Shown here one piece after another: positions 40,914 to 57,579 of a DNA stretch of 64,000 nucleotides. Made by a program: the position numbers and the translations under genes. Origin of the DNA: Polyangium jinanense (GTDB lineage: Bacteria; Myxococcota; Polyangia; Polyangiales; Polyangiaceae); the NCBI RefSeq assembly GCF_028435365.1, contig NZ_JAGTJJ010000007.1:248001-312000 (forward strand), written 5' to 3'. Under the pieces are notes generated by a model that saw only the letters and a list, made by a program, of their open reading frames with translations, had not been told where the DNA came from and made no database searches. How positions within the stretch are numbered: the first letter of the stretch is position 1; every line of letters begins with the position of its first letter.

Positions 40914-42752
40914 ATGACCTCGAACGACCACCGGACCAAGCGCTCGTCTTTTTCCCTTTCTCGCGTCTTCCTCGGCATCTGGGGCACGGCTGCGATCGTC
41001 GCGATCGCCGGTTGTGACGACGGCGCCGGCACGTCTGGCTCCGCGGGCGCGCCCTCCACGGGCGGCAGCGGCGGCGCGGGCGGCTCGATGCAAGCCGGCG
41101 GAATGGGCGGCGTCGGTGGAATGGGCGGCGCCGGCGGCGCCGGCGGCGTTGGCGGCGTTGGCGGCGTCGGTGGAATGGGTGGTTCCGGCGGGCAGAACTG
41201 CATCCCCGAGACCTGCAACGGCGTCGACGACGATTGCGACGATACCGTCGACGAGGACATCCCCGGCGTCGGCATGTCCTGCGACACCGCCCTCTCGGGC
41301 GTCTGCGCGGCCGGCACCACGGCCTGCAAGGATTCCGCGCTCACCTGCGTGCAGAACGTCCTTCCGAGCCCCGAGGTGGCGGATGCGCTCGACAACGATT
41401 GCAATGGCCAGGTCGACGACGGCCTCATGCTCGGCAAGGGGCTCTGGGCCAAGGGGTACGGCAATGACACGTCGACGCAGAGCGTCCTCCGCATCGCCAC
41501 CGATTCCGTGGGAAACATCGGCGTCGTCGGCTGGATGACGGGCGGGTTCGTCAATTTCGGCGGCAGCACCATGACCGTCTTGGGCTTGGAAGACGCCTTC
41601 CTCGTCAAGCTCGACCCGAACGGCGGCTTCTTGTGGCAACAGCAGTTCAGCGCCTCGAACAATCTCGGCTGGGTCTCGGCCCTCGCCTTCGATTCGACGG
41701 GGAACGCGTACACGGCCGGATATTTCATCAGCAACATGACCGTGGGGGGCAAGACCCTCAACCCGATCGGCAGCGGGGACATTTTCATCCTCAAGCACGA
41801 CGCCGCCACGGGCGCGGTGCTCTGGAGCAAGGTGTTTGGCGAGTCCACCAACTCGCAAGGCGTGTCGGACCTCGCGACCACGCCGGCCGGCAACCTCGTG
41901 GCCACGGGGACCGTGCATGGTGGCGCCGTGAGCCTTGGCGGCGCCCCCTTGGCCGGATCTTCCAGCGACGCCATCCTCGCCATGTACGACGCCACGGGCG
42001 TCCATCTCTTCAGCAAGCGATTCGGGGACGGCTTGATTCAGTCCGGCAAGAGCGTCGCCGTCAATGCGGCGGGCGAGATCGCCCTCGCCGTCGACCTCGA
42101 GGGCACGGTCGATTTCGGCGGCGGCGTGCTCACGTCGGCGGGCTCCACCGACGTCGCGATCGCGAAATTCGCCGCGGATGGGACCCACCTCTGGAGCAAG
42201 AACTACGGCTCCGCGATGCAGCAGGCAGTCAACAGGGTCGCCTTCGATGCGCAGGGCAACATCCTGATCACGGGTACCCATTACGATCCCATCGATTTCG
42301 GATGCGGGCCCGTATCGGCGGTGAACAACTACGGATTCTACGTGGCGAAGCTCGATCCGAACGGCGCGTGCCTCTGGACGAAAACCTACGGCACGACCCC
42401 TGTCAAAGGGGTGTACGCATCCAAGATGGCCGTGGATCCGACGGGCAACGTCGTCGTGACGGGCACGTTCCTGGGCAGCATGGACCTCGGCGGCGGCATG
42501 ATGACCGCCGTGGAATCGTCTCAGGATATCTTCGTGCTCAAGCTGAGCTCCACGGGCGCCTACGTGTGGAGCAAGCACTATGGCGACCCGGTCGTGTACG
42601 AGATGGACTCGGGCAACGACGTGGCGACCGATCCGATGGGGAACATCCTGCTCGGCGGGGATTTCGGCGGTAACATCGACTTCGGCTCGGGGACGATCTC
42701 GGCCGTCGACCTGAACCACCAAGACGCGTACGTGGCGAAGCTCTCGCCCTGA
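40914..42752 (+). CDS. Lipoprotein with MopE-like metal-binding motif and SBBP beta-propeller (copy 1)
   Basis: A 612-residue predicted lipoprotein (signal to VAIAGC). A Gly-rich linker leads to a Cys/Asp motif, ETCNGVDDDCDDTVDED, GVCAAGTTACKD and ALDNDCNGQVDDGL, which matches the MopE-type metal-binding repeat (PF11617). The rest is a propeller of about eight SBBP repeats such as AFLVKLDPNGGFLWQQQFSA and DAYVAKLSP at the end. Tandem paralogue of the gene at 43132, with which it shares the start MT-NDHR-KR, all domains and the ending AKLSP. Probably surface-located; binding partner unknown. Confidence 0.85.
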   Translation: MTSNDHRTKRSSFSLSRVFLGIWGTAAIVAIAGCDDGAGTSGSAGAPSTGGSGGAGGSMQAGGMGGVGGMGGAGGAGGVGGVGGVGGMGGSGGQNCIPETCNGVDDDCDDTVDEDIPGVGMSCDTALSGVCAAGTTACKDSALTCVQNVLPSPEVADALDNDCNGQVDDGLMLGKGLWAKGYGNDTSTQSVLRIATDSVGNIGVVGWMTGGFVNFGGSTMTVLGLEDAFLVKLDPNGGFLWQQQFSASNNLGWVSALAFDSTGNAYTAGYFISNMTVGGKTLNPIGSGDIFILKHDAATGAVLWSKVFGESTNSQGVSDLATTPAGNLVATGTVHGGAVSLGGAPLAGSSSDAILAMYDATGVHLFSKRFGDGLIQSGKSVAVNAAGEIALAVDLEGTVDFGGGVLTSAGSTDVAIAKFAADGTHLWSKNYGSAMQQAVNRVAFDAQGNILITGTHYDPIDFGCGPVSAVNNYGFYVAKLDPNGACLWTKTYGTTPVKGVYASKMAVDPTGNVVVTGTFLGSMDLGGGMMTAVESSQDIFVLKLSSTGAYVWSKHYGDPVVYEMDSGNDVATDPMGNILLGGDFGGNIDFGSGTISAVDLNHQDAYVAKLSP

Positions 42753-43033: not shown

Positions 43034-43131
43034 GGGGGATCGCGTCCTGATCCGATGGGTCGACCGCGGGGGAGGCGCTGGGCAGGTAACCGCCTTGGCA
43101 GGTCGCCCGAAAGCCAGGTACCGTGAGGCTT

Positions 43132-44862
43132 ATGACCTTGAACGATCACCGACCCAAGCGTCCTTCCTTTTCTCTCCACCACGTATTCTTCGGCCTGTGC
43201 GGCTCGGCTGCGATCGCGATCGGCGGCTGTGGCGACGGCGGGAGCACGGCGTCCACGTCAACCGGCGGGCAGGCCGGCGGCATGGGCGGGGCCGGCGGGC
43301 AGACGTGCGTCCCCGAGATCTGCAACGACCTCGACGACGATTGCGACGGCAGCGTCGACGAGGACGTCCCCGGCGCCGGCCTTTCGTGCGACACCGCGCT
43401 CCCTGGCGTCTGCGCGGCCGGCACCTCGACCTGCAAGAATGCCGCGGTGACCTGCGAGCCGAACGTAAAGCCGAGCCCCGAGGCGCCGGATGGGCTCGAC
43501 AACGACTGCAATGGTCAGGTCGACGACGGCCTCTCCCTCGGCAACGGGCTCTGGGCCAAGGGATACGGGAGCGACGCGGCCTCGCAGTACGCACAAGGCA
43601 TCGCCACGGATTCGGCAGGGAACATCGCCGTCATCGGCCAGCTCAGCGGCGGCGACATCGATTTCGGCGGCGGCAAGATGAAGGTGACGGGCACGGACGA
43701 TTCGTTCCTCGTCAAGCTCGACCCGAGCGGCGGCTTTTTGTGGCAGCAGCAATTCGACTACGCCGGCGAGTACGACCGTATCAATTCCGTCGCTTTTGAT
43801 CCGGCCGGCAACGTGTTCGCGGCCGGAACCTTCTCCAGCGAGATGACCGTGGGGGGCACGTCCCTCGTCCCCAACGGCGGCGGCAAGGACATTTTCATCC
43901 TCAAGCACAACGCTTCCACGGGCGCGGTGCTCTGGAGGAAAGTCATTGGCGCATCCACCGAGCCGGAGAACCTGTTCGACATCGCCCCGACCCCGGCGGG
44001 CGGCCTCGTGATCACCGGGACGTCTTTGGGAGACACCGTGAATCTCGGCGGCGGCGCCTTGAAAGGTTCGTTCGCCGATGCCTACCTCGCCGTCTACGAC
44101 GCCGCGGGCGCCCACGTCTTCAGCAAACGATTCGGGAACGACGACCTGGGCCAGAACGGCCGGACCGTCGCCGTCAACGCGGCAGGCGAGATCGTGCTCG
44201 GCGTCGACCTCAACGGCGCGGCTGATTTCGGCGGTGGCGTGCTCACGTCGGCGGGCGGCAGCGACATCGCGATCGCGAAGTTCTCCGCGGACGGGACCCA
44301 CCTGTGGAGCAAGGTGTACGGCACCGCGGAGCAGCAGACCGTCAGCCAGGTGGCCTTTGATGCGCAAGGCAACATGCTGATCACCGGCCCCCACGTGGAT
44401 CCCATCGATTTCGGGTGCGGGCCCGCGTCGCCGCCGAACTACGCCGGGTTCTACGTGGCGAAGCTCGATCCGAGCGGCGCGTGCGTCTGGACCAGGACCT
44501 ACGGCACGACCCCCGGCCAGACGGTTGGCACGCCAAGACTCGCGGTGGATCCGGCTGGCAACGTCCTCGTGGCCGGTGGCTTCTCGGGCACCATGGACCT
44601 CGGCGGCGGCGCGATGGAGAGCGGGGGCAAGCAGACCGACGTCTATGTGCTCAAGCTGAGCCCCTCGGGCGTCCCCATCTGGAGCAGGCACTATGGCGCC
44701 CCGGCGCCCGAGAGCGACGGCTGCGCCGCGCTGGCGACGGATCCCATGGGCCACGTCGTGCTCACCGGCCATTTCGAGGCCAACATCGATTTCGGTACCG
44801 GGACGATCCCGTCGGGGGACCTGGGCGAGTCCGACGTGTTCGTGGCCAAGCTGTCGCCTTGA
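43132..44862 (+). CDS. Lipoprotein with MopE-like metal-binding motif and SBBP beta-propeller (copy 2)
   Basis: A 576-residue predicted lipoprotein (MTLNDHRPKRPSFSLHHVFF, lipobox IAIGGC). Linker shorter than in copy 1. MopE-like motif: EICNDLDDDCDGSVDED, GVCAAGTSTCKN and GLDNDCNGQVDDGL. Propeller repeats follow: SFLVKLDPSGGFLWQQQFDY, DIFILKHNASTGAVLWRKV, to DVFVAKLSP. The ATG at 43132 aligns with the start of copy 1; an ATG three codons up is in frame. About 30 bp of upstream DNA (GGCAGGTCGC, GAAAGCCAGGTA) is also shared with copy 1, so the duplication includes the 5' flank. Confidence 0.85.
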   Translation: MTLNDHRPKRPSFSLHHVFFGLCGSAAIAIGGCGDGGSTASTSTGGQAGGMGGAGGQTCVPEICNDLDDDCDGSVDEDVPGAGLSCDTALPGVCAAGTSTCKNAAVTCEPNVKPSPEAPDGLDNDCNGQVDDGLSLGNGLWAKGYGSDAASQYAQGIATDSAGNIAVIGQLSGGDIDFGGGKMKVTGTDDSFLVKLDPSGGFLWQQQFDYAGEYDRINSVAFDPAGNVFAAGTFSSEMTVGGTSLVPNGGGKDIFILKHNASTGAVLWRKVIGASTEPENLFDIAPTPAGGLVITGTSLGDTVNLGGGALKGSFADAYLAVYDAAGAHVFSKRFGNDDLGQNGRTVAVNAAGEIVLGVDLNGAADFGGGVLTSAGGSDIAIAKFSADGTHLWSKVYGTAEQQTVSQVAFDAQGNMLITGPHVDPIDFGCGPASPPNYAGFYVAKLDPSGACVWTRTYGTTPGQTVGTPRLAVDPAGNVLVAGGFSGTMDLGGGAMESGGKQTDVYVLKLSPSGVPIWSRHYGAPAPESDGCAALATDPMGHVVLTGHFEANIDFGTGTIPSGDLGESDVFVAKLSP

Positions 44863-45708: not shown

Positions 45709-45726
45709 CGATCGTATCCTGCCGGC

Positions 45727-48540
45727 ATGGCACGGCAGCGCTTCCTCTCCTTGTCCTCGGGCCTCGGCGCCCTGATCCTCGCCTTCGTCGGCGCGGGCGC
45801 GCGCCTGCCCGACGCCGGCCCGAGCGCGGCCCGCGTCGTCTCGCCCGGGATCCCGCTCGACGCGCCGGCTTATGGTCCTTCCAAGGGAAAACAGGCGACC
45901 CCCGCGGTCGCCTACGACGGAACGAACTGGCTCGTCGTGTGGGAACACCACGCGGCGGACGGTTTTTCCTCGGGCCTGCGCGGCGTCCTCGTGGGCCCGT
46001 CCGGCGCGCCGCTCGACCCGCAGGGCTTCGAGATCGAGCCGTCCGTCGGGTACAACTTCGCGCCCGCCGCCGCGTGGGACGGCGCGAACTGGGTCGTCGC
46101 CTGGGAAAGCGGCGTTCCGGGCGACGGTACGAACTGGGACATTCGCGCGCGGCGCTTCGGGCCGACCGGTACTCCGCTCGGCGACTCGTTCGTCCTCGGC
46201 GGCGCCACCAATGCGCAACGCGCCCCGGCCATCGCCGCGGCAAATAGCCGCGTCCTCGTCGTCTGGGAGGATTTCCGTAATGGCACCTCGAACGACATCT
46301 TCGGCGCGCGTCTCCTCTCGAACGGCGTCCTGCTCGACCCGCTCGGCCTTTCCATCGGCGCCGCCACGAACGAGCAGAGCCGCCCCGCGGTCGCCTGGGA
46401 TGGCACGAGCTTCGTCGTCGCCTGGCAGGACTATCGCAGCGGCACGAACCAGGATGTGTACGCGGCGCGCGTGACGCCCGCGGGCGTCGTCCTCGATCCT
46501 GCGGGCATTGTCGTCTCCACGGTCGCGGGCAGCCAGATGTATCCGTCTGTCGCCAGCAATGGCATGAGCTCGCTCGTCGTCTGGCGTGATTACCGCAGCG
46601 GCAGCTCGTACGACATTTACGGCGCGCGTATCGATCCGAACGGCACGGTGCTCGACGCCGCGGGCGTGCTCGTCTCGGCCGCGTCGGGCTCCCAGCGATA
46701 TCCCCAGATCGCCTGGGATGGCGTGAACTTCGTCGCCGTCTGGGAAGACCTGCGCAATGGCGGCGGCGTGTACGATCTGTATGCCACCCGCGTCGATTCC
46801 CAGGGCACGGTCCTCGATCCGGCCGGGTTCGCCGTGATCAAAGGCGGCACGGACGACCTCTCCGTCGCGCTTGCCCCCGGCGCGACCCACACCCTCGCCG
46901 TCTGGGATGTCGACCGGGACAACCGCGATATCGTCGGCGCGCGTATCAGCCAGGGCGGCACGGCCGTTGACACGCCTCCGGCGCTGCTCTCCACGGCGCC
47001 GAACGAGGAGCGCATCGGCGACGCGGCGTTCGACGGGACGAACTGGTTCGTCGTCTGGGCGGACTCGCGAAATGGAGAGAGCGTCATTGCCGGCGTCCGC
47101 GTGAGCCCTGCGGGGGCGGTCCTCGATGCCTCGGCGATCCTCATCGCCACCGGCCAGGGCCCCGTCGCGGACCCGCGCGTCGCGTTCGACGGGAAAAACC
47201 ATCTCGTCGTCTGGACCGACCGACGCACGATGCAAAACCAATCCGACGTCTACGCGGCGCGCGTGACCCCTGCCGGCGCCGTCCTCGATCCCGGTGGATT
47301 TCCCGTCGCCACGGGCACTTCGTCGCAGCAGTCGCCGTCCGTCGCCTCCACGGGGAGCGCCTGGCTCGTCGCATGGCTCGACGATCGCACGGGTGCCACG
47401 GCGTGGGACATCTATGGCGCGCGTGTCTCGCCTTTTGGCGCGGTGCAGGACCCCCAGGGCTTTCCGATCACGACCGCGCCGGGCTCCCAGTACATCTCGG
47501 ACATGGCCTCGAATGGCTCGCTCTACCTCGCCGTGGCCACCGATCACCGCAATGACACGACAGGCGACGTGTATGCCTTCCGGATCGACCCGAGCGGCGT
47601 AGTCCTCGACGCCGCGGGCATTCCCGTATCGGTCGCGCCGAATGCGCAGACGAGCCCCTCGGTCGGCCTCGATGGCAAGGATTTCCTCGTCGTGTGGTCG
47701 GACGACCGAGCGGCCACGGCCCCCGATATTCACGCCGCGCGGGTCACGGCCGCGGGGGTCGTCCTCGATCCGGACAGCCTCGTGCTCGCGGCGACCCCCA
47801 GCGCCGAGCGTGCGCCTTCCGTGGCCTTCGACGGCGCGCGCCACGTCGTCACGTATTCGATTGCCTCGGACAGCGCGAACGACATTGCGGGGCTTCGGCT
47901 GCACACGGATGGCACGCCCGTGGATGCGATGCCTTTCGTGATCAGCGCCGAGCCGGCGGAGGAGAATCCGTCGATCGCTTGCGCGGGGCCGCCTGGAAGT
48001 GTGCTCGTCGCATACGGGGCGCAGGACGACGTGACGGATCGAATTCGCGTCCGGGCGAGGGTCGTGACCGACGATGGAGGCGGCGGAGCCGGCGGCGCAG
48101 GAGGCGGAAGCGGAGGCGGAGGCGGAGGCGGAAGCGGGGGCGGAAGCGGGGGCGCAGGCGCAGGCGGAAGCGGTGGCGCAGGCGGAAACGGAGGCGCAGG
48201 CGCAGGCGGAAGCGCAGGCGCAGGCGCAGGCGGAAGCGGTGGCGCAGGCGCTGGCGGAGCCGGTGGCGGAAGTGGCGGCGCAGGCGGGACTGGCGGCATC
48301 GCTGGAAACGGCGGCGCTGGCGGCAGCGCCGGCGCGGGCGGGGAGGGGGGCCTTGGTGGAATGGGCGGTGGGGCTTCGTCGGGGGGCGGTGATCGGCCTT
48401 CGGGTCCGATCCTCGTGGATGACGGTTGTGGGTGCCGGATGACCGACGACGCTTCGGGGACATCGCCGGCTCTCCTCTCGCTTGCCGCGCTTTTTCTCCT
48501 GCGGAGACGTCGGATCGAGCGTAAGCTCCGGTCCGCGTGA
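45727..48540 (+). CDS. Large secreted beta-propeller protein with MYXO-CTERM-type anchor
   Basis: A 937-residue protein with a signal peptide (SLSSGLGALILAFVGAGA). Residues about 50-770 are some 13 repeats of 55 residues with a common core such as YDGTNWLVVWEHHA, PAVAWDGTSFVVAWQDYRSG and DVYAARVTPAGVVLDPAG. A Gly/Ala/Ser run of about 100 residues follows. The end carries GCGCRMTDD, a hydrophobic helix (ALLSLAALFLL) and RRRRIERK, the MYXO-CTERM sorting layout (Cys motif, helix, Arg-rich tail). Such proteins are processed and held at the cell surface. The TGA overlaps the GTG start of the next gene. Confidence 0.85.
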   Translation: MARQRFLSLSSGLGALILAFVGAGARLPDAGPSAARVVSPGIPLDAPAYGPSKGKQATPAVAYDGTNWLVVWEHHAADGFSSGLRGVLVGPSGAPLDPQGFEIEPSVGYNFAPAAAWDGANWVVAWESGVPGDGTNWDIRARRFGPTGTPLGDSFVLGGATNAQRAPAIAAANSRVLVVWEDFRNGTSNDIFGARLLSNGVLLDPLGLSIGAATNEQSRPAVAWDGTSFVVAWQDYRSGTNQDVYAARVTPAGVVLDPAGIVVSTVAGSQMYPSVASNGMSSLVVWRDYRSGSSYDIYGARIDPNGTVLDAAGVLVSAASGSQRYPQIAWDGVNFVAVWEDLRNGGGVYDLYATRVDSQGTVLDPAGFAVIKGGTDDLSVALAPGATHTLAVWDVDRDNRDIVGARISQGGTAVDTPPALLSTAPNEERIGDAAFDGTNWFVVWADSRNGESVIAGVRVSPAGAVLDASAILIATGQGPVADPRVAFDGKNHLVVWTDRRTMQNQSDVYAARVTPAGAVLDPGGFPVATGTSSQQSPSVASTGSAWLVAWLDDRTGATAWDIYGARVSPFGAVQDPQGFPITTAPGSQYISDMASNGSLYLAVATDHRNDTTGDVYAFRIDPSGVVLDAAGIPVSVAPNAQTSPSVGLDGKDFLVVWSDDRAATAPDIHAARVTAAGVVLDPDSLVLAATPSAERAPSVAFDGARHVVTYSIASDSANDIAGLRLHTDGTPVDAMPFVISAEPAEENPSIACAGPPGSVLVAYGAQDDVTDRIRVRARVVTDDGGGGAGGAGGGSGGGGGGGSGGGSGGAGAGGSGGAGGNGGAGAGGSAGAGAGGSGGAGAGGAGGGSGGAGGTGGIAGNGGAGGSAGAGGEGGLGGMGGGASSGGGDRPSGPILVDDGCGCRMTDDASGTSPALLSLAALFLLRRRRIERKLRSA
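48078..48350 (+). repeat. Gly/Ala-codon low-complexity run in the MYXO-CTERM gene
   Basis: About 270 bp of purine-rich GGC/GGA/GCA codons, built on short units like GGAGGCGGAGGC and GGCGCAGGCGCA. It encodes the flexible Gly/Ala/Ser linker before the anchor. The repetitive DNA invites length variation, and may cause assembly errors. Confidence 0.7.
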
Positions 48541-53184: not shown

Positions 53185-54561
53185 TCAATCGGGATCGCGC
53201 CGCGTCCTCCGCACCCGGAACGCCGTCTCCGGCGGCAGGACCGGCGTGACGCCCGTCCACGCTTCCAGCGCATCGAGCGCTTTCGCGCGGTCCGGCTCCA
53301 TCAGATCGACGATCGACGCGGAATGGTTTTTCCCAGGCGCGAGGAACCAGTAGCTATCCTTCGCACTCCCGAGCTCGAAGGCCGCCGCCGTGTAAGGATC
53401 GGTCTCCCCGTACACGAAAAGGAGCCGTTCCCCCTCCGCCGAGATCCAGGTGGAAATGTCCTGCATCGCCGACGCATCGAACACCGGCGTCTTGCCCGGC
53501 GTGAGATACGTCTCCGGCACGTCGATCCCGGGGAACTGTAGCAGATCCGCGACGTTCGATTCCGTGACCGCCGGATACCCGAGCTCCGTGGCGGCTTGCC
53601 AGTAATAAGGCTCGTACGTGAGGAACTCCTCGTCCGACCAGAGGCTCGGCGAGGCGATCTCGTCGAGGAACGTCCACACATCGTCGTCCGTCGGCACGAT
53701 GCTCATGTCGGGACAAACGCTCTCGTCGTAATACTGCCAGAACGTGAAGATGAGCTGCAGTGTGGCCACCTCGAGCGCCTTCTCCCGCCCGAGCAGCTCG
53801 TAACCGAGCCCGTTCTCCGCGGCCTGCGCGTCGATCCGCGCGAGCATCGCCTCGCGCCGCACGAGCACCTCCCGCTGGAAATACCGCAGCGCGTCCTTGC
53901 AGGTCGAGCTCCCGAGCGACCCCACGAAATCGAGGTACCGCGCATCCGCCGTGCCGAAGCTGTGCGGCGCCACGTACGCGACCGTCCCGTCCACGTCGTC
54001 GGGGAAAAACCGCCGATGATACACGGACGTCATCCCGCCCTTGCTCCCGCCGGACGAGATCCATTTGCCCGTGTAGATCGGCTTCAACGCAAGGGCGATG
54101 CGGTGGTGATCCGCCGCGGCTTGTTCGATCGTGAGCAGCGACCAGTCGGCCGGCTCCGGCCGCGAGGGCGCGAAGAACCGTTGCTCCACGTAGAGCTGAT
54201 TCGCGCCGAGCAACATGGCCGGCTCCCGGATCCTTTGTCGCGTCGGACTGACGTTGTACCCCGACGTGCCGAGCACGAACGGCGCGGCCGCGTCCCTGTG
54301 GTGCAGGAGCAAGCGCTGCCGGAAGACCGACCCGCCTGCCGCGCCGTGATCCGCCGGCTGCTCGTACTCCATCACGAAGTAACGATATCCTTCGGCCCCC
54401 GAGTTCTCCTCCGTCACCACCATTCCGGGGATGGCCGCGAGCCGGTCGAAAATATCGACCTCCGGCGGCGGACGCGTGGGTTCGTCCGAGCAGGCGGGCA
54501 GAAAGCCAAGGGCGAGCGGGGCGACGAGGCAAAGCGCGCCCCGCATCCTTCGAGACATCAT
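53185..54561 (-). CDS. Lipoprotein S37-family (PS-10) peptidase
   Basis: A 458-residue predicted lipoprotein (lipobox FLPACSDE). The alpha/beta-hydrolase core has the nucleophile motif SSGGSKGGMTSVYHRRFFP (Ser in GGSKGG) at about 165-175, the acid in FVYGETDPYTAAAFEL, and the His in APGKNHSASI. These match the S37 family of prolyl-type aminopeptidases (tripeptidyl aminopeptidase, PS-10). The family is secreted; here it should be lipid-anchored. Stop is 1 bp from the stop of the convergent NodB-fold gene. Two ATGs overlap at the start (54561 and 54558). Confidence 0.8.
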   Translation of the reverse strand: MMSRRMRGALCLVAPLALGFLPACSDEPTRPPPEVDIFDRLAAIPGMVVTEENSGAEGYRYFVMEYEQPADHGAAGGSVFRQRLLLHHRDAAAPFVLGTSGYNVSPTRQRIREPAMLLGANQLYVEQRFFAPSRPEPADWSLLTIEQAAADHHRIALALKPIYTGKWISSGGSKGGMTSVYHRRFFPDDVDGTVAYVAPHSFGTADARYLDFVGSLGSSTCKDALRYFQREVLVRREAMLARIDAQAAENGLGYELLGREKALEVATLQLIFTFWQYYDESVCPDMSIVPTDDDVWTFLDEIASPSLWSDEEFLTYEPYYWQAATELGYPAVTESNVADLLQFPGIDVPETYLTPGKTPVFDASAMQDISTWISAEGERLLFVYGETDPYTAAAFELGSAKDSYWFLAPGKNHSASIVDLMEPDRAKALDALEAWTGVTPVLPPETAFRVRRTRRDPD

Positions 54562-54568
54562 CGTTCCC

Positions 54569-56260
54569 TCAGAGCGGCGCGACCTTCACCCAGAACCGCG
54601 GCTCGTACGTGAAGAGCGTGTTGACACTGCCCGACCCCATGATCCCGAAGCCGAGCGGGGTGAATCCGATGGCGAAATGCGAGGTGAGCGGGAAGCCGAA
54701 GCCGAGCTGGAATCGCGCGCCGAACCCGTTCGCGGGCTCGAAATAGGCCGAGTCGAACACCACGCGCGAATAAAACGGCAGGGCCGTGAACTCGATCTCC
54801 GAGTACCTGCCGAGCCCCGTCACGAACCGGATCGGCACGCCGATGCCCCATTGCGCCGCATCGCTCGTCCCCACGAAGCGCCCTTCGAGGCCGACCTCGA
54901 AGCGCTGCCGGGGCCCTGTCGAGATGCGGTACGTCGCTTCGAGATCCACGAGCGCGCCGTCCTTCACGGCGAACCTGCCCGGCGCGAAATACCCTCCGCC
55001 CGCGAGGCCGATCCCGAAACGGAGCTTGTTGTAATCCTTCTGCGGATCCGCGGGCTTCTCCTCCGGCGGAAGCTCCTCGGCCGGCACCGACTTCACGCCC
55101 GCCTTCGGCGGCGTGGCGCCCTGCGGAGGCGGCGGATACGGGTAGGGGTACGGATACGGGTACGGATAAGGCGCGGCGCCCTGCGGCGGCGGCGGATACG
55201 GGTAGGGGTACGGATACGGCGCAGCGCCCTGCGGCGGCGGCGGATACGGATAGGGATACGCCGAGCCCTGCGGCGGCGGAGACGGCTGCGCCTGCTGCGC
55301 GGGCGGCGGCGGGGCGCTGGTTTGTCCCGCCGGCTGCTTGGGCGTCTGCCCCGCCGGCGCCTGCGTGGTTTGTCCCGCCTTCGCCGGTTGCGCCGCGGCC
55401 TCCTCCGGCACGACGAGCGCCGCCGCTGCCAGCATCGCCGACGCCAGGGACAACCGCGGGCCCTTTCGGGCGAGCAGAACCGCCGCGCCCACCGCGAAGA
55501 GCAACACGATCGACACGACCTGCGCCGAGCTCAAGGGCCCGTACGTCCCGCGCGACGCGTCGCCGCGCAGCATTTCCACGAAAAACCGCCCCGTCGCATA
55601 AAGCGCGATCCACGTCCCGAACGCCCGCCCGTCGCGCCGCGGCCCGAGCAGCCATAGCGAGGCGATCGCGCCCGCCACGAGCCCCACCGCGGCCTCGTAG
55701 AGCTGCGTCGGGTGCACGGGCAGGCTCGGCGCGCCGTGCGGCACCCAGCCGAGCGACGCGTGATCGAGCGCCGCCGGGCTTTCCGCCGGGAAACGCACCC
55801 CGAACAGCCCCGCCGTCGGTTTGCCGTAATCACACCCGGCGAGGAAACAGCCCGTTCGTACGAACCCGTACGAGATCCCGCAAAGCGGAACCGCTCGATC
55901 CAAAAAAGGCAGCGCCTTCGCGCCCCCGCGGCGCAGCACCCAGGCCGCCGCGAGCGCCCCCATCAAGAGCCCGCCATACGCCGCGCGTCCCGCGTGGAGC
56001 AGCGGATTCAGGGATCCCGCGGCGATCGCCTCCGGCACGGCCCGCAGCCATTCGAAGACGTAACCCCCCGCGAGCGCCCCGGCATAGGCCGCGACGAGCG
56101 CCCGCCCTTCGAGTCCCGCGTCGGCCCCGTCGCGCCGCGACAGTTTTTGCGTTGCAACCGCGCCGAGCAGCGCTGCGAGCCCGACCATCACCATGTAATC
56201 GGGCGCGAGCCACCCGGGCAGCCCGTTGCGCTCGAGCCAAGCCACGATGAGGGTTCTCAT
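54569..56260 (-). CDS. Lgt-like diacylglyceryl transferase fused to an outer-membrane beta-barrel-like domain
   Basis: A 563-residue fusion. Residues 1-265 are an Lgt-like polytopic domain: GRAAYGGLLMG, YGFVRTGCFLAGCDYGKPT (134-148), VHPTQLYEAAVG and TGRFFVEMLRGD. Compared with E. coli Lgt motifs, the His of the FHGG loop is Tyr and the Asn and Glu of the signature loop are Cys. Residues about 271-289 (ASAMLAAAALVVPEEAAA) look like an internal signal peptide, followed by a Pro/Tyr linker (AYPYPYPPPPQG repeats) and a 160-residue Gly/aromatic-rich barrel-like domain. The start overlaps the upstream stop (ATGA). Lgt normally lipidates lipoproteins. Confidence 0.8.
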   Translation of the reverse strand: MRTLIVAWLERNGLPGWLAPDYMVMVGLAALLGAVATQKLSRRDGADAGLEGRALVAAYAGALAGGYVFEWLRAVPEAIAAGSLNPLLHAGRAAYGGLLMGALAAAWVLRRGGAKALPFLDRAVPLCGISYGFVRTGCFLAGCDYGKPTAGLFGVRFPAESPAALDHASLGWVPHGAPSLPVHPTQLYEAAVGLVAGAIASLWLLGPRRDGRAFGTWIALYATGRFFVEMLRGDASRGTYGPLSSAQVVSIVLLFAVGAAVLLARKGPRLSLASAMLAAAALVVPEEAAAQPAKAGQTTQAPAGQTPKQPAGQTSAPPPPAQQAQPSPPPQGSAYPYPYPPPPQGAAPYPYPYPYPPPPQGAAPYPYPYPYPYPYPPPPQGATPPKAGVKSVPAEELPPEEKPADPQKDYNKLRFGIGLAGGGYFAPGRFAVKDGALVDLEATYRISTGPRQRFEVGLEGRFVGTSDAAQWGIGVPIRFVTGLGRYSEIEFTALPFYSRVVFDSAYFEPANGFGARFQLGFGFPLTSHFAIGFTPLGFGIMGSGSVNTLFTYEPRFWVKVAPL

Positions 56261-57579
56261 GGCCGCCTCCGACGCGAAAGGAGATACAGATACGCGACGG
56301 GGAGCGCGAGCCAGAACGCTGTCCCGACCGGCGCGGGCAGGGGCGACCGCCCGGGCCGCCGCGCGACGGCGCACTGGCTGCCCTTGCAGTTGTTGTTGCA
56401 GTCCTTGCAGTTCTGGTTGCAATCCGAGCAATTGTCATTGCACTTCGAGCAATTGTCGTTGCACTTCGAACAATCGTCGTTGCAACCGCCGCACGAGTCG
56501 CCCGAGCAACCCCCGCAGCTCGACGAGCTACTGCCGCCCGACGGCTCGCCCGAGAGGCTCCCGTCCGAGAGGCATTGCTGGAGCAAGCTCATGCAGCTCT
56601 CGCTCGCCAGGAACGCGAGCGCGTCGTCCCGCGTCGTCACCGGCAGCGCCGCGCAGATCGATCCGCCCGACTCCACGCACGCCCGCACCCCATCGATGTT
56701 CATCAGCGCGAGCACGCAGAGCGCCGCCGCGTTCGCCTCCGCCTGGTTCACCCACGTGCACTCCGCATTCGCGTCGGAGAACGTCGGATCCGTCACGTCG
56801 TGATCACACGTCCCGCTCGCCGCGCAGCCGCACGTCGTCTGCACCTGCAGCGAGCACTCCTCCAGGCTGTCGGGCAGCTTGTACGGATTGAAATCGACCG
56901 ACAAAGGCTTCGATCCCGGCCACTCCGGCATCGGCACGACCGCGGGGACGGGCACGACCTGCGCGCCCTCCTCCTCCAGTGCCGCGAGCGCGACGAGCCA
57001 CGACGCATTCACGTAGACCTTGTCCTCGAAGGCCCAGGCGCCCATCGGCAGACCCGTGGTCCGCACGATCTCCTTCGCCTCCGAACGTTTCGCGAGGTCT
57101 TGCACCCAGCGCCCCGCGCGCCCTTCGAGCGCCGCCTCTTCGAGCGCCGCGGTCACGTTCCCCGGGCGCCCCCGCATCTTCGGCGGCCCCTCGCTCGCGA
57201 CGCCGGTCTCCTTGGCTTCACGCGCTTCGAGGTGGAGCTCCGCGCCCTCTCGCTCGATCGCGCCGAGCACGAGCGCATCTTTTCCTTGCTCCTCGCGCTC
57301 CTCGTCGGCGGCGCTCGCGAGCGCGTCGATCGTCGTGATGTCCCGCGGCGGGATCACGAGCCGCTCCTCCACGGGACCGATCCCGGCCTCTTCCAGCCGC
57401 TGCGCCACTTCGCGTCGCGTCTCCTTGGGCAGCGACGCCATCACTTCGGGCGCTGCGCGGAGCGCGTCTCGCAGCGGAAGCGCATCATAAGGCGGCGCCT
57501 CCTCCCCGCACCCCGCGGCGAGCAACGCGGTCACGGCCAGCGCCCCGCACCTCCCCCAAAGCCTCCCCAACCTCCCCAT
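56257..57579 (-). CDS. Lipoprotein with 14-Cys heptad tail, membrane helix and Arg-rich end
   Basis: A 440-residue predicted lipoprotein (signal to LLAAGC, then GEEAPPYD). The middle has RRDITTIDALASAADEE-like charged helices and Cys-bearing segments (QVQTTCGCAASGTCDHD, CTWVNQ). Residues about 355-404 are a Cys-rich run in a 7-residue step C-N-x-x-C-x-x (CNDNCSKCNDNCSDCNQNC), 14 Cys in about 50 residues. A hydrophobic helix (VGTAFWLALPVAYLYLL) and RRRRP end the protein, a layout like MYXO-CTERM tags. ATG 57579 starts the signal. Its stop overlaps the Lgt-like gene start. The function is not known. Confidence 0.65.
   Translation of the reverse strand: MGRLGRLWGRCGALAVTALLAAGCGEEAPPYDALPLRDALRAAPEVMASLPKETRREVAQRLEEAGIGPVEERLVIPPRDITTIDALASAADEEREEQGKDALVLGAIEREGAELHLEAREAKETGVASEGPPKMRGRPGNVTAALEEAALEGRAGRWVQDLAKRSEAKEIVRTTGLPMGAWAFEDKVYVNASWLVALAALEEEGAQVVPVPAVVPMPEWPGSKPLSVDFNPYKLPDSLEECSLQVQTTCGCAASGTCDHDVTDPTFSDANAECTWVNQAEANAAALCVLALMNIDGVRACVESGGSICAALPVTTRDDALAFLASESCMSLLQQCLSDGSLSGEPSGGSSSSSCGGCSGDSCGGCNDDCSKCNDNCSKCNDNCSDCNQNCKDCNNNCKGSQCAVARRPGRSPLPAPVGTAFWLALPVAYLYLLSRRRRP

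Follow-up and report, generated by a model that had tools for sequence, protein, structure and literature searches.

An Lgt-like transferase fused to a predicted outer-membrane barrel and coupled to a gene for a Cys-tailed partner in Polyangium jinanense

Introduction

The stretch of the Polyangium jinanense genome analysed here (the window; 64,000 nucleotides of contig NZ_JAGTJJ010000007.1) contains one reading frame in which an Lgt-like membrane enzyme is continued by what looks like an outer-membrane protein. Why would an inner-membrane transferase and an outer-membrane barrel be encoded in one gene, and which protein would such an enzyme serve? The fusion gene had been described correctly in the original prediction, which missed the translationally coupled gene for a Cys-tailed partner next to it. 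FbcH, the cytochrome b/c1 precursor of Bradyrhizobium, is a bacterial membrane polyprotein that is cut at an internal signal peptide; it is unrelated to the fusion protein, and the likeness lies in the internal-signal-peptide polyprotein. A literature search on Lgt fusions or internal signal peptides returned no report on point.

Organisation of the fusion gene

Features of both genes are listed in Table 1. Read directly from the minus strand, the fusion ORF was unbroken and remained in a single frame. LGT was the sole Pfam match (residues 22-259), and no Pfam barrel family matched at E <= 1. Structure prediction of the C-terminal part gave a confident eight-stranded barrel with an OmpA/NspA-like fold. 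The same fold is predicted for the domain as is known from NspA, the OmpA N-domain, OmpX/Ail and the OprF N-domain, but sequence identity to these barrels is 9-15% (VIA rows), and unlike them it forms the C-terminal end of an inner-membrane enzyme. The linker is partly encoded by 48-bp and 24-bp tandem repeats. Pfam, predicted fold and alignments agree with the order of parts proposed originally, that is, an Lgt-like domain, an internal signal-like helix, a Tyr/Pro linker and a barrel.

Table 1. Features of the fusion gene and the coupled partner gene (window positions)
Feature	Position	Strand	Basis
Whole fusion gene, 563 aa	54569..56260	-	ATG start at 56260, stop codon 54569-54571; orthologues found
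Lgt-family transferase domain, residues 1-270	55451..56260	-	Pfam, alignment and predicted structure
Internal signal-peptide-like helix, about residues 265-290, ending AAA	55391..55468	-	AxA conservation and segment distribution
Disordered Pro/Tyr-rich linker, residues 291-412	55025..55390	-	Low pLDDT; repeats
Predicted 8-stranded outer-membrane-type beta-barrel, residues 413-563	54572..55024	-	Confident structure prediction
Partner gene (UP), 440 aa	56257..57579	-	Lipobox, two domains, Cys-rich stretch, tail of Cys, helix and RRRRP
ATGA overlap of partner stop and fusion start, 4 nt	56257..56260	-	Read directly
Partner lipobox Cys, residue 24	57508..57510	-	Alignment of homologues
Partner tail Cys, residue 403	56371..56373	-	Only invariant Cys in 36 aligned homologues
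Partner C-terminal membrane helix, about residues 418-437, then Arg cluster	56269..56328	-	Sequence and model

The nearest genome compared (G001) had 39% of the window's words in common. Starting 7 nt past the fusion-gene stop is a PS-10 peptidase S37 gene (53185-54561, minus strand) whose beginning is lipobox-like (FLPAC); it was not among the genes common to the distant loci compared.

Conservation of the fusion and of the internal signal

The original prediction had named a frameshift or assembly error at about 55450 as one thing that would refute its reading. This was not borne out, as the barrel was present in the same frame in 89 of 121 related proteins examined. Nothing was found in favour of an artefact; only P0073 and P0080 look broken, and elsewhere. 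An artefact is refuted by these relatives and has a practically negligible probability. The two Sorangium proteins P0073 and P0080 are apparently broken copies, in which an AAAQ- or AAAQA-type end is kept and the barrel is lost.

The junction in the fusion protein has the layout of a signal peptidase I substrate (RKGPR, a helix, then AAA|Q), with the cut predicted between residues 290 and 291. The small-x-small (AxA) pattern was found in 59 of 62 aligned fusions; the three without a good AxA count against the main proposal. The Ala290 column held Ala in 58 and Gly in 2 of the 62 rows, position -3 Ala in 45 and position +1 Gln in 42, and position -2 was variable. A second hydrophobic segment followed the Lgt core in all 86 anchorable barrel proteins (of 89) and in only 6 of 30 evaluable proteins without a barrel (of 32), namely P0073, P0080, P0085, P0091, P0112 and P0089. 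In three of these (P0085, P0091 and P0112) the enzyme is followed by a different secreted part, attached via a lipobox-like site at the place of the internal signal: VVGGC in P0085, ALAGC in P0112 and, less clean with Asp at -1, LLADC in P0091. The cargo behind the Lgt-like domain of P0085 and P0091 is homologous to the partner lipoprotein described below. P0112 (723 aa) carries a pectinase-like (polygalacturonase-like) domain behind its internal lipobox.

The distribution over barrel and non-barrel proteins, together with the lipobox variants, suggests that the helix belongs with the secreted part and that the type of processing suits the cargo. Polyprotein processing is the likeliest reading of the fusion as judged from sequence, and a conserved architecture with internal processing is very probable. 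The suggestion that cleavage could release two proteins is supported at this level by the AxA conservation and the helix distribution. It is very unlikely that the protein stays uncut and spans the envelope, with the Lgt domain in the inner membrane, the barrel in the outer membrane and the proline-rich linker as a strut. The linker of the window protein (about 122 aa) would be long enough by itself; linkers in relatives, however, range from 26 to 193 aa (median 97, below 40 in 5 of 62), of which the shortest are ill suited to an intermembrane tether, and the conserved AxA also argues against such a span.

Separate barrel genes in relatives, which had been proposed as a clue to the origin of the fusion, were represented by one likely case. 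A protein search with the barrel profile gave 29 short matches; among the 14 that were read, P0229 seems to have its own signal peptide, and the remainder look like pieces of fusions or start without a clear signal. No stand-alone barrel gene was found in 41 family genomes, where the profile matched in 4, each time inside a long fused frame.

The Lgt-like domain

The fusion protein scored 115.5 bits against PF01790 (gathering cut-off 24.9) and, differing in this from Lgt proper, fell far below the NCBIfam lgt equivalog cut-offs (TIGR00544, 48.4 of 118.9 bits; NF000778, 101.9 of 334 bits). Residues were mapped onto E. coli Lgt (PDB 5azb/5azc). The core residues R143, Y235, R239, E243 and R246 are all matched, and their columns were invariant in 62 aligned relatives, which counts for a functional enzyme. 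Differences from E. coli Lgt are Tyr, Cys and Cys in place of His103, Asn146 and Glu151, the additional C-terminal secreted part and the enzyme's own coupled partner gene.

The Tyr and the two Cys had been taken originally as marks of a non-housekeeping enzyme, an argument that does not hold. Besides the fusion orthologue, G001 has four PF01790 genes (taken from the Pfam search, where a sixth row is a piece of one of them). Tyr is found at position 103 in three of the four, Cys at 146 in all four, and at 151 Cys in two and Asp in the others (E. coli numbering). Because these genes share most of the substitutions, the substitutions alone are not diagnostic of housekeeping status, and a 2026 paper (PMC13251419) reports similar natural variation in distant Lgt proteins (Y/W/F for H103, C or C/D for N146/E151). 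Cys counts over the scanned loci are biased, since the genome-scan patterns favoured GC..GCD-type Lgts. That the domain is an extra, specialised copy is better supported on other grounds, namely that G001 has four further Lgt genes and that, in a tree of 94 Lgt domains, the 20 partner-linked rows formed one group (support 100/99) separate from those genes. The sister group of the partner-linked Lgts, consisting of four loci (L025, L028, L029 and L033), lacks a partner gene, which counts against the main proposal; L032 has no upstream DNA.

Mutant data also weigh against the main proposal. Complementation is reported to fail for E. coli Lgt with H103Y and with further changes at H103 (PMC4728403) as well as with N146A (PMC13251419), and low activity is presumed for a Mycobacterium smegmatis Lgt copy that carries N146C and Y26H (PMC13251419). 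The domain might use another lipid donor or another acceptor, or serve the partner as a non-catalytic membrane chaperone. Such a change is suggested by the replacement of His103, Asn146 and Glu151 and by arm-2, which reads GRAAYGG in the window protein and, in a second subclade of partner-linked Lgts, GMTSFWGY. With the Arg/Tyr/Glu core invariant and the same replacements in other G001 Lgt genes, it is improbable.

The coupled partner gene

The start of the partner was taken at the ATG after GGAAGGGGG. The same A/GTGA junction was found in 16 of 16 loci printed, with the same offset in L013, L014 and L015. The partner adjoins the Lgt gene at every one of the 19 fetched clade loci that include upstream DNA; the partners of L030, L031 and L039 were missed by the first partner profile and match other partners by BLAST. 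Among the matches listed, only these two genes and their shadow frames were common to distant loci. Among the candidates scored, orthologues of the Lgt-barrel protein with E values of 1e-100 or better were present in 4 of 41 family genomes (G001, G015, G020 and G021, the first two of one genus), and barrel and partner were each found in the same four. P0085, in which enzyme and partner are joined in one chain, likewise counts for a partner-serving enzyme. Dedicated service of the Lgt to its coupled partner is given about even odds on this genomic pattern.

Outside the clade, L044 alone among 79 loci had a Cys-tailed ORF beside an Lgt gene, in a test that missed the clade loci L027 and L042. 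In this Desulfobacterales locus (L044:6039-8834), an ORF with Cys, helix and basic tail lies directly upstream of the Lgt-like gene with a gap of 37 nt: ICGRSRKKTMAVAPFVVFFGLFGIYRRIGRKRG.

AlphaFold2 gave two confident regions for the partner (about residues 30-200 and 235-340) and a disordered Cys-rich stretch. Foldseek found no fold match for the two domains in the PDB (best E 0.87). The C-terminal helix was clear in 96 of 103 homologues, and in all 96 a Cys was located at most 26 residues before it; six further homologues share this Cys before a weaker helix, and P0223 is cut short. The tail Cys is retained in partners that lost the CN repeats. These Cys/Asn repeats are encoded in the window by 21-bp tandem repeats (56382-56485), whose copy number varies among relatives. 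The last Cys pair stands about 25 residues before the helix in the Labilithrix partner (L019) and about 55 residues before it in the Pendulispora partner (L134); the latter spacing counts against the main proposal.

At the N-terminus, every one of the 93 evaluable rows had a Cys at most 14 residues before a PP..LRD motif, with lipobox-like letters before the motif in most rows printed, and the lipobox Cys reached 90% in the 36-row alignment. Either Cys may be the target, because the lipobox Cys (93/93) is as conserved as the tail Cys (96/96). The conserved lipobox, which the housekeeping Lgt could modify as well, speaks against the main proposal and for an alternative, namely an extra, broadly acting Lgt that modifies ordinary lipobox Cys residues including that of the partner and is not specially tied to the tail Cys. 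The barrel would then have become fused when a stop codon within an operon was lost, because the downstream signal peptide still works; the different secreted parts in different relatives fit this as well. A general enzyme, however, would not need to co-occur, and be coupled by 4 nt, with a single partner family throughout a whole clade, and the L030 partner seems to lack a lipobox (its N-terminus is of the signal-peptidase-I type) yet keeps the tail Cys. A broadly acting enzyme is a possible but less favoured explanation.

Comparison of the partner tail with sorting systems

All 96 tails with a clear helix have the Cys, membrane helix and Arg-rich end by which MYXO-CTERM is recognised. As in the MYXO-CTERM/myxosortase system of Myxococcus xanthus (PMC11980579), the tail is tripartite with an invariant Cys, a helix and an Arg cluster. 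Unlike MYXO-CTERM, it usually has one Cys instead of GCGC, scores below the curated cut-offs and belongs to a protein that also carries an N-terminal lipobox. Ten partner tails of 120 aa were compared with TIGR03901 and TIGR03382. None reached the cut-offs; two gave sub-threshold matches (window partner, TIGR03382, 14.1 of 15.85 bits; L021, TIGR03901, 16.9 of 20 bits) and the other eight matched neither model. A true MYXO-CTERM tail in the window, used as control, scored 29 bits as a 120-aa tail. Whole-protein NCBIfam scans are poor for tails and missed this one. The control protein is a 942-aa ORF (45709-48537, plus strand) about 6 kb from the fusion, with the tail DDGCGCRMTDD..RRRR (TIGR03901) and beta-propeller-type repeats below cut-off.

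With 150 of 311 candidates scored, G001 had at least 80 MYXO-CTERM matches over cut-off, among at least 102 at E <= 1, and the G001 partner was absent from them. Some of its MYXO-CTERM tails (GCDCSVAGES, GCGCSVPGSS, GCGCSVEGQR) resemble the partner tails SCSVAGAG and NCSVARQ.

In PMC11980579, the acyl-transferase for the Cys in the myxosortase model is described as unidentified, with Lgt or an Lgt-like protein as the leading, predicted candidate, and MYXO-CTERM is called universal in the phylum. The fusion was rejected as the general enzyme of this pathway because Lgt-barrel proteins occur in just 4 of 41 family genomes.

Two further systems described in the same paper are comparable. MrtJ/JDVT-CTERM pairs are likewise two-gene neighbourhoods of a processing enzyme and a single Cys-tailed target, but here a myxobacterial host encodes an Lgt-family enzyme in place of a CPBP protease. 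MXAN_5598 also combines an internal sorting or processing signal with a following outer-membrane barrel in one protein; its first part is an adhesin with MYXO-CTERM, whereas here it is an enzyme.

Proposed mechanism

From the architecture, the conserved cleavage motif and the coupling and co-occurrence of the two genes, all read from sequence, we infer a scheme for cleavage, enzyme activity, the modified Cys and the role of the barrel. The first part would be a functional Lgt-family transferase that sits in the inner membrane and has its C-terminus in the cytoplasm. The helix that follows would act as an internal Sec signal peptide, after whose AAA signal peptidase I would cut, and the freed Pro/Tyr-rich barrel would go to the outer membrane. 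The transferase would give a diacylglyceryl group to the partner at one of its two conserved Cys residues, either the N-terminal lipobox Cys or, as a bolder version, the C-terminal Cys of the MYXO-CTERM-like tail. The barrel may be an optional outer-membrane helper, because enzyme and partner also occur without it. This polyprotein with an Lgt dedicated to its coupled partner is assigned a probability of roughly 0.5.

The tail Cys as the target is doubtful. A dedicated module for C-terminal Cys lipidation, in which an Lgt paralogue would work with inverted topology on one coupled substrate and the barrel would aid display, is held to be similarly tentative. If true, the missing lipidation step of MYXO-CTERM-type sorting would gain its first candidate with a genomic tie, and the two genes would provide a natural enzyme-substrate pair for testing lipidation of a Cys in a C-terminal sorting tail. 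The fusion, if read correctly, would be a clear and recurrent bacterial example of a single gene that yields both an inner-membrane enzyme and an outer-membrane protein by way of an internal signal peptide; among relatives the site switches between the signal peptidase I and lipobox types.

Elsewhere in the window, two neighbouring lipoprotein genes on the plus strand (40914-42752 and 43123-44862) have similar ends and are probably a tandem duplicate.
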